IMG/VR virus record: IMGVR_UViG_3300022187_000170
Location: 1 to 28,291 of that record
Length of the DNA: 28,291 nt
Reading direction: 5' to 3' (one strand)
From: a virus
Shown: positions 26,885 through 28,291 of the stretch, in pieces
Numbering within the stretch: position 1 is the first letter of the stretch
Layout of the letters: every line of letters begins with the position of its first letter
Notes under the pieces: model-generated
What the model was told of the DNA's origin: nothing
Database searches by the model: none
The model's input: the letters and a program-made list of their open reading frames with translations, nothing else
Made by a program: the position numbers and the translations under genes

Positions 26885-27020
26885 CAAGTTAGTCGCTAAA
26901 ACAGTGTTGGAAGTGCTGGAAGAAGCCGGAGAACATGGAATAGAGGAAGAACAAATGTGGATAGAGGTTGAGAAAAAACTTAAATCTAAAGAATTAAAGC
27001 TCGATGAAAGTCCAAATTAA
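26871..27020 (+). CDS. Small acidic protein coupled to the primase gene
   Basis: 49 residues from the ATG at 26871, with GGAG at 26862-26865. A longer frame from 26784 would begin inside the primase without such a site and is not preferred. The sequence (QDYDKLVAKTVLEVLEEAGE, then EEEQMWIEVEKKLK) is acidic and helical with no recognised family. It overlaps the primase end by 14 bases and the convergent GIY-YIG-like gene by 4 bases. Confidence 0.55.
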   Translation: MQDYDKLVAKTVLEVLEEAGEHGIEEEQMWIEVEKKLKSKELKLDESPN

Positions 27021-27739
27021 AGCTTATCTATATTATATTTAAATCCCTCGTCTGATAAAACGCTTGCAAGAAAATCTTCAACAAGCGTTTTTCTCCAGGT
27101 TTTATCACTATATAGATTATCTAATGAGTCTTTTAACCTATCAGCCTCTCTCCAATCTGTTCTACTCCAATCAAGAGAGTCAATAATAAAATCCCTGATT
27201 TCTTTTCTAAGCTCATTATGCAGATTAATATAAGCTTGGTTTTCTTTAAGCTCGTTATTAAGCCTATCAAAAAAACTATTAGTTCTATTCAAAAAACACA
27301 AAACGTTTTGCACATATAAACAAGCTATATATTTTTTAAACTTATCCTCTGTTAAGTCTACAAGTTTTATCTTTTTAAGTTCTTCTGCCATTAGTAAAAC
27401 AGGTTCTTTATGACTCTCTTCTTCTTCAATTTTTTCAGCAGCTTCACTGATATTCTTATATGCATTAAAAGAAATACAATTCTGCTTTATATAGTGCCTT
27501 ATATGAGGTGTTAAGTGAAACCATTCACCCATCTCTGTCCTATACTTAGAAAACTTCTTATGTAGTGATCCTTCGCTTTCAACGATCTCAGGAAGGACCC
27601 CTAAAACCTTAACTGGCGTTGGTGATGAAGTTTGAAGCCCCTTAACCCTTGAGCTAACATCAAACGCTTTGCCTATTTTAACATAGCGCCCTTCATGTTC
27701 TGGGAAAGTTATAAAGTATACAAAGTTAGCCCACTTCAT
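27017..27739 (-). CDS. T5orf172/MUG113-type (GIY-YIG-like) protein
   Basis: 240 residues from the ATG at 27739 (MKWANFVYFI); a longer frame to 27772 lies inside the preceding gene. The N-terminal ~80 residues match this family: NFVYFITFPEHEGRYVKIGK, R29, LQTSSPTPVKVLGVLPEI, E-x-x-LHKKF and GEWFHLTP. Related GIY-YIG domains are nucleases, but the catalytic role in this branch is unproven. The remaining ~150 residues are helical and unrecognised. The codons are more AT-rich than in neighbouring genes, which could mean separate acquisition. It is coupled to the small gene upstream by a 14-base overlap. Confidence 0.7.
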   Translation of the reverse strand: MKWANFVYFITFPEHEGRYVKIGKAFDVSSRVKGLQTSSPTPVKVLGVLPEIVESEGSLHKKFSKYRTEMGEWFHLTPHIRHYIKQNCISFNAYKNISEAAEKIEEEESHKEPVLLMAEELKKIKLVDLTEDKFKKYIACLYVQNVLCFLNRTNSFFDRLNNELKENQAYINLHNELRKEIRDFIIDSLDWSRTDWREADRLKDSLDNLYSDKTWRKTLVEDFLASVLSDEGFKYNIDKL

Positions 27740-27989
27740 CTTCAAACAGCTCCCGATACCGATGATCATCACCCATCCACTGGAAGAACTTAGTGCTACG
27801 CGCTTTAAGCTCCTCTAAGCGCTCCCGGGTTTCAGGGCGCTCGTCGATGCCGTCTAAGATTTCTTCAGCTAGCTCGCGGATAGCCTCAACGTGATCAAGG
27901 ATAGAGTCAGTGGTTTCAGCCTCATAATCAGGTTCAGAGTTATCCTGTAGGTGTAGTGGTGGGTTCACTGGTAGTTCTGGTAGTCTCAT
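27726..27989 (-). CDS. Small acidic hypothetical protein
   Basis: 87 residues, with a proline-rich start (MRLPELPVNPPLHLQ) and an acidic helical remainder (ILDHVEAIRELAEEILDGID, then RERLEELKARSTKF). No domain is recognised. It is the first gene of the leftward unit controlled by leader C and is followed by the GIY-YIG-like gene with a 14-base overlap. Coiled-coil character suggests a binding protein, which is inference only. Confidence 0.6.
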   Translation of the reverse strand: MRLPELPVNPPLHLQDNSEPDYEAETTDSILDHVEAIRELAEEILDGIDERPETRERLEELKARSTKFFQWMGDDHRYRELFEDEVG

Positions 27990-28059
27990 GACTTGTTCTC
28001 TCTTTCTGTAGCTACAAGCTACAACAACCAGTGTATATGAGGCTGGTCAAACTAGTCAA
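27990..28059 (-). promoter_or_regulatory. Leader C: sigma70-like promoter plus 5' hairpin
   Basis: On the minus strand TTGACT (28059-28054), 16 bases, TATACA (28037-28032), 9 bases, then the hairpin GTAGC-5 nt-GCTAC (28022-28008), then AGAAAGAGAGA and exactly 18 bases to the ATG. This is the best promoter of the three leaders. Transcription would start at or just before the hairpin. Confidence 0.65.
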
Positions 28060-28146: not shown

Positions 28147-28196
28147 GCCTAAGACTCCTCACGGAGTTTCGCCTATTCAAGGCTCATCAGTTAGGC
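28147..28196 (-). ncRNA. Hammerhead ribozyme, type I
   Basis: Read on the minus strand: stem I 5' strand GCCTAA (28196-28191), core CTGATGA (28190-28184), stem II GCCT/AGGC with loop TGAAT (28183-28171), core GAAA (28170-28167), stem III CTCC/GGAG capped by GTGA, a GNRA loop (28166-28155), UH as T28154 C28153, then stem I 3' strand TTAGGC (28152-28147). All three stems are perfectly paired (6, 4, and 4 plus the A-U of the core). Cleavage is expected between C28153 and T28152. Stem I is the open one, so the type is I. Hammerheads are known from bacterial and phage genomes. No functional test is available here. Confidence 0.9.
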
Positions 28197-28291
28197 TTGT
28201 CTAAGACGTCCTCAAGGCTTCCTGCCCAGACTTGTCCGTCGGCAGCAATGAACGCTGGAAGACCTCGGATACCATGCTGCTGCATGAGCTG
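28187..28291 (-). CDS. Thioredoxin-fold protein, C-terminal end
   Basis: The last 34 codons of a minus-strand gene whose 5' part is outside the window. The residues HGIRGLPAFIAADGQVWAGS match the strand plus cis-proline loop of thioredoxin, glutaredoxin and DsbC/DsbG-like proteins (G.RG.P.....DG.V..G). The catalytic Cys pair would be upstream and cannot be seen. The stop codon TGA (28189-28187) lies inside the hammerhead core CTGATGA, so the last three codons contribute to the ribozyme. The exact subfamily is uncertain. Confidence 0.55.
   Translation of the reverse strand, partial: QLMQQHGIRGLPAFIAADGQVWAGSLEDVLDKPN

Follow-up and report, generated by a model that had tools for sequence, protein, structure and literature searches.

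Known hammerhead ribozymes

Hammerhead ribozymes are already known from phages. According to the accessible parts of the survey of Perreault et al. (PMC3088659), prophage hammerheads flank genes and are active in vitro and in E. coli. The same parts describe the HHphage hammerhead of haloviruses HF1/HF2, which is located 13 nt before an early phage gene and for which the 5' end of the transcript lies at most 3 nt from the cut. What hammerheads do in prokaryotes is acknowledged to be unsettled (PMC6155905). Crystal structures of two unlike hammerheads have a single tertiary pair in common, of the A-U Hoogsteen type, formed by an A at the last position of loop II and the U adjoining residue 1.6 (PMC2553840).

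The DNA analysed here (the window) is a stretch of 28,291 nt from an uncultured phage, and it carries a hammerhead belonging to a phage family. The family resembles the prophage and phage hammerheads in the accessible parts of Perreault et al. 2011 (PMC3088659) and the review of de la Pena (PMC6155905) in being of a self-cleaving type, in often having several copies per phage and in flanking single genes; processing of long transcripts was proposed for those ribozymes, some of which are active. The hammerheads of types I-III in these parts have loop-loop or pseudoknot contacts, often of at least four pairs, whereas in the present family stem I is open, with 6 bp, and the covarying contact is between single nucleotides. 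HHphage, as far as the available text describes it (PMC3088659), differs by a variant core and by its archaeal virus host type. The Rfam family Hammerhead_1 (RF00163) agrees with the phage family in topology, core, order of the stems and length of stem I (6 bp) and stem II (4 bp), but its model stops at stem I and does not include the flanking contact nucleotides. In Schistosoma Sm-alpha and in sTRSV (PMC2553840), as is predicted for the phage ribozymes, the last nucleotide of loop II contacts the nucleotide adjoining residue 1.6. Unlike these, most phage copies have the two bases swapped and have neither a bulge in stem I nor a closed loop I. RAGATH-1 (RF03152) is also of type I, but differs by a shorter stem I and an additional hairpin upstream, which are unsupported in the window.

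Structure of the window ribozyme

The ribozyme is located on the minus strand and is read from 28196 to 28147. The following features were assigned, in the order of the minus strand.

28187..28291, minus strand: C-terminal part of an ORF truncated by the contig end, weakly thioredoxin-like (Pfam Thioredoxin_2, E 0.086, 34 aa); its stop is inside the ribozyme core
28197, minus strand: unpaired A preceding stem I (position -1); predicted partner is the first nucleotide of loop II, U28179
28147..28196, minus strand: type I hammerhead ribozyme with entire core and stems I-III (sequence, fold, Rfam match, leave-one-out model)
28191..28196, minus strand: 5' arm of stem I, GCCUAA, paired over 6 bp to 28147-28152 (6-bp stem I in 269 of 287 family matches)
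28184..28190, minus strand: core CUGAUGA, containing the UGA stop of the upstream ORF (28189-28187)
28171..28183, minus strand: stem II, 4 bp, GCCU 28183-28180 with AGGC 28174-28171, pentaloop UGAAU 28179-28175 (family consensus UNRRU)
28168..28170, minus strand: core GAA, with G12 at 28170
28154..28167, minus strand: stem III, 5 bp, ACUCC 28167-28163 with GGAGU 28158-28154, GNRA-type loop GUGA (fold)
28153, minus strand: cleavage-site nucleotide C17, from its position in the core; predicted cut between 28153 and 28152
28147..28152, minus strand: stem I 3' arm UUAGGC, which would form the 5' end (5'-OH) of the downstream RNA
28146, minus strand: unpaired A following stem I (position +1 = 1.7); predicted partner is the last nucleotide of loop II, U28175
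28085..28103, minus strand: weak terminator-like hairpin of 6 pairs, with a GCCUAA copy in its loop (1 found, 0.3 expected)
28030..28059, minus strand: weak sigma-70-like promoter match before the next ORF (1 found, 0.3 expected)
27726..27989, minus strand: next downstream ORF, 87 aa, start codon 157 nt past the ribozyme

An earlier note on this DNA had proposed a whole type I hammerhead at 28147-28196, and its cores, perfect stems and GUC cleavage site were all confirmed. The CUGAUGA and GAA core, the A15.1-U16.1 pair and the GUC (NUH) site are present, and stems I, II and III have 6, 4 and 5 pairs with zero mismatches. The minimum-free-energy fold of the 50-mer is exactly the proposed structure (-16.9 kcal/mol). 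The ends of the motif are in stem I, as in type I (the RF00163 criterion), and the 6-bp stem I, the 4-bp stem II with a UNRRU loop and the A on both flanks fit the design of the family. By every criterion of sequence and structure that computation can test, the window ribozyme is a type I hammerhead, and its cleavage is predicted.

A covariance model (R2) was built from 38 relatives with the window sequence excluded. This leave-one-out model scored the window ribozyme at 65.1 bits (E 3.9e-15), with the rest of the window at noise level. A default Rfam scan of the window was empty, the Hammerhead_1 match being below the gathering score. The check with the Rfam type I model that the earlier note had proposed gave an end-to-end match to 28147-28196, but at 24.4 bits (E 0.001) it did not reach the gathering score of 34, and for this reason the ribozyme is filed as a type I hammerhead by its features and not as an Rfam member. 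RAGATH-1 matched weakly at the same place (23.1 bits, gathering score 56.3). Rfam thresholds recover one of about 20 family copies in eight loci, and the sub-threshold score reflects a gap in the Hammerhead_1 model rather than absence of a ribozyme.

That the window copy is a chance resemblance or a decayed copy is hardly credible. The Rfam score below threshold and the position of the ribozyme at a contig end, in a locus without a covering relative, would favour this explanation. Against it stand the E value from a model that had not seen the window and the agreement of the window with the family consensus at every core position, every pair and both contact positions. When the fetched loci (1.26 Mb) were scanned with a type I descriptor, 287 matches resulted, and three Markov-shuffled versions of these loci gave zero. 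It is the zero that is informative, the loci having been chosen by core match. A chance origin had already been judged very unlikely from the sequence, and these results agree.

The phage and the neighbourhood of the ribozyme

The window encodes T7-like tail proteins, a RecE-type exonuclease, a Sak4-like protein, a helicase and a prim-pol primase. The virus record upholds the placement of the ribozyme in a phage. With its best named relatives, which include pelagiphages, the tail protein shares about 25% identity. Searches with the primase, the tail protein, the helicase and the 87-aa ORF gave no relative that covers the ribozyme end and a single 4.1-kb fragment matching the other end of the window. 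The region from 24 to 28.3 kb had no match to named phages at the nucleotide level.

The upstream gene had been called thioredoxin-like; a match exists, but it is a weak one to a truncated ORF. The hairpin and promoter that had been described downstream were each found once, but both are weak. The window copy is typical in its 5' register, with the upstream UGA stop in the core, and atypical on its 3' side, where no gene starts within 60 nt and the weak terminator-like site follows. The 87-aa ORF is weakly similar to the Acb2/Tad1 hairpin domain of anti-CBASS/anti-Thoeris sponges (E 0.023, below the Pfam cut-off). Another ORF near the ribozyme region (27017-27772, minus strand) has a T5orf172/MUG113 (GIY-YIG-like) domain. 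A mini-ORF directly after the ribozyme (MNVSG and a stop) was taken as chance; its GGAG would fall inside stem III.

Occurrence and conservation in phages

A pattern with 23 fixed bases, in which stems I and II were unconstrained, was found in 32 other viral contigs; nearly all of these have a 6-bp stem I and most have a 4-bp stem II. A second pattern, which put no constraint on stem II pairing or on the outer half of stem I, was found in at least 120 viral contigs, as against three places in 257 Gb of bacterial genomes (Mucilaginibacter, Aquimarina and a Bacteroidia MAG). By our own estimate, fewer than 0.001 matches to the second pattern would be expected by chance in either collection. The second pattern yielded 140 distinct sequences; their free pairs include many pair types and are complementary in 98.6-100%, and at position 7, outside stem I, A is opposite A in 139. 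Over both patterns, the pattern-free pairs are 93-100% complementary. Changes on both sides occur at 13 of the 15 stem pairs of the family alignment; this count and the model R1 come from sequences picked by a descriptor that requires stems, and the pattern-free pairs are the less biased test. The three helices are preserved by compensatory change among the relatives, and a stem I of exactly 6 bp with one unpaired A on each side is the family design. Family counts are shaped by the finding of loci with patterns and descriptors and by shared ancestry, which least affect the free positions, the advance prediction for loops ending in A and the within-contig comparison described below.

The predicted ribozymes form a large, mostly unannotated family in phages. 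The 50 carrier contigs have between one and 14 copies per phage. In the phage with 14 copies (G001), hammerheads alternate with small genes on one strand. The pelagiphages Eistla EXVC025P, HTVC168P and MedDCM-OCT-S35-C6 have one or two hammerheads each, located before the RNA polymerase gene. Both G001 (loci L180/L181) and G027, which has 13 hammerheads, are phages with a T7-like RNA polymerase, and in places they carry about one hammerhead per gene. The idea that such phages are the sole carriers, with the ribozyme replacing RNase III sites, was rejected, the polymerase being present in three of the 50 carrier contigs, many of which are fragments. One 63-kb phage (G017, record L013) has eight divergent hammerhead-like matches along its length, those listed scoring 30-39 bits, and the L013 copy has a 3-bp stem I. 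This set is perhaps a further subfamily.

Predicted contact between loop II and the flanks of stem I

Across the family, both ends of loop II covary with the flanks of stem I: the last loop nucleotide with the one that directly follows the stem, and the first with the one that precedes it. Five-base loops with U at both ends have A opposite A on the flanks in 194 of 194 cases, as against 16 of 41 for other loops. The nucleotide at +1 and the last loop nucleotide (n = 265) are A-U in 210 cases, U-A in 38, C-G in one and other combinations in 16. The contact rule is followed by 54 of 59 clusters below 80% identity (p 5e-9) and, within phage contigs that hold both loop classes, by 16 of 18, a count that excludes C opposite U in three 6-nt loops; the contigs L057 and L117 break the rule. 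Phylogeny is handled in these statistics by the 80% clustering and the within-contig comparison only. An advance prediction, that a loop ending in A would be accompanied by U after stem I, was true in 19 of 20 new cases, fetched in two subsequent viral scans. In these loci, U follows stem I in nine of nine GNRA loops and 10 of 11 UNRRA loops, and A follows it in 141 of 141 UNRRU loops. Exceptions to the rule (L057, L002, L027 and L102) have TGAAA or TCATG loops with A opposite A, and TCATG or TAATG loops with A opposite G; they may use another contact.

Compared by sequence, the covarying phage pair is the predicted counterpart, at the same position, of the A-U Hoogsteen pair of the solved hammerheads. 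The minority phage classes with GNRA or UNRRA loops retain A in loop II and U in the flank. The majority of phage copies have the swapped form, with U in loop II and A at 1.7; in the window these are U28175 and A28146. The window therefore does not have the classic pair of sTRSV and Sm-alpha (A in loop II, U at 1.7), and a swapped-type pair fits the covariation.

The earlier note had suggested that CTTA/TAAG or ACGT/ACGT pairings could extend the helix past stem I. This suggestion found no support: of 223 members, 19% have a 4-bp outer helix, and the figure is 21% after shuffling of the flanks between members. With no enrichment over shuffled flanks, the outer helix was rejected as the stabiliser of the family, and the 4-bp option of the window itself is at chance level. 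By the same family flank test, the internal loop in stem I with an outer helix, which is classic for natural type I hammerheads, is likewise unsupported.

Position relative to genes

A long ORF ends at the 5' side of the ribozyme in 242 of 252 members, compared with 279 of 786 random places on the same strand. The stop codon of this ORF is most often within or touching stem I or the core. In 128 of 252 members, the 60 nt downstream contain a Shine-Dalgarno sequence and an ATG, compared with 72 of 786 random places and none of 252 on the opposite strand. The leader from the cut to the ATG has a median length of 26 nt (interquartile range 22-31). The downstream ORFs number 195 in 159 sequence families (median 82 aa), and 29 of 224 members have no ORF of at least 40 aa starting within 80 nt downstream. 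The spacing of about 26 nt to a gene start is absent from the window, where the distance of 157 nt after stem I is a minority arrangement. The neighbouring genes have little in common except position, which fits a general role as putative mRNA punctuation.

The same register bears on a regulated switch or mRNA stability element, in which terminating ribosomes would delay folding and cleavage would report upstream translation. Many members have the upstream stop inside stem I or the core, which agrees with such an element, as do the stop codons in the 5' arm and core by which two of the three frames are closed in 202 of 223 members; regulated cleavage in phages is also discussed in the accessible parts of Perreault et al. 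(PMC3088659). A switch is nevertheless unlikely, given that no conserved ligand-like domain or alternative fold is attached, that stem III loops are short and variable, and that the very diverse downstream gene families fit a general rather than a gene-specific role.

The ribozymes could instead be passengers of small mobile gene cassettes, their self-cleavage aiding movement or doing little harm, in a phage that needs no processing. Near-identical ribozymes do occur beside different genes, copy number ranges from 1 to 14 between phages, and a link between ribozymes and mobile elements appears in the available text of the 2011 survey (PMC3088659). The precise register to the stop codon and the next start, and the diverse ribozyme sequences that keep pairing and contact within one genome, make this origin quite improbable.

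In L143 (8787-8845), L144 (488-551), L145 (19996-20056), L034 and L099, the 5' arm of stem I is repeated a few nucleotides downstream. This repeat could pair with the freed 3' arm and form a hairpin at the extreme 5' end of the cleaved mRNA. A copy of the 5' arm within 20 nt downstream was found in eight of 255 members, with 1.2 expected. As a general feature this hairpin was rejected, being limited to pelagiphages and to L034 and L099. In the window, the GCCUAA copy lies at a distance of about 50 nt and may be a chance occurrence.

Proposed mechanism and role

Most probably, the window contains one member of a large family of self-cleaving phage hammerheads of type I, which punctuate polycistronic mRNA at gene ends and are held by a contact between loop II and the stem I flanks. 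This best explains what was observed, namely the sequence and structure, the covariation, the family and the context; cleavage, the chemical ends, the effect on the mRNA and the biological role we infer from published precedents and from what is established of hammerhead chemistry. Self-processing of an mRNA had been proposed earlier, and processing at gene ends would still be the best functional reading, judging from the anatomy of the locus and the same precedents.

After synthesis of the minus-strand mRNA, the RNA would fold where the upstream gene has its stop codon, and would cut itself between 28153 and 28152. The active fold would be kept without a loop or an outer helix on stem I; it would be held by pairing of U28175, the last nucleotide of loop II, with A28146, and probably also of U28179, the first, with A28197. 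Cleavage would give the upstream mRNA a defined 3' end, which would carry a 2',3'-cyclic phosphate and be shielded by stems II and III, and would leave a 5'-OH on the downstream RNA. The window copy would mainly set the 3' end of the upstream mRNA rather than the 5' end of the next gene, because the latter is 157 nt away, behind the weak hairpin and promoter-like site. Across the family, cuts at the boundaries of small phage genes would provide host-independent punctuation of polycistronic mRNA.

Significance

In relation to the accessible parts of the 2011 survey (PMC3088659), which possibly includes some of the sequences, the new part is the swapped, covarying contact between loop II and the flank of an open stem I. 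Current Rfam thresholds overlook almost all of these phage ribozymes. The covariation points to a minimal natural hammerhead. A minimal hammerhead engineered by O'Rourke et al. in 2015 is reportedly fully active. The covariation between loop II and the flanks also makes the tertiary pair shared by the solved hammerheads testable by compensatory mutation. The family is a large, well-registered set that includes the cultured pelagiphages Eistla EXVC025P and HTVC168P, in which cleavage and its effect on mRNA are directly testable. In a broader proposal, to which we give even chances, many phages would use arrays of open-stem hammerheads as host-independent mRNA punctuation, these natural ribozymes would reach full speed with no more than two isolated pairs joining loop II to the flanks, and the universal A-U tertiary pair would be invertible to U-A.
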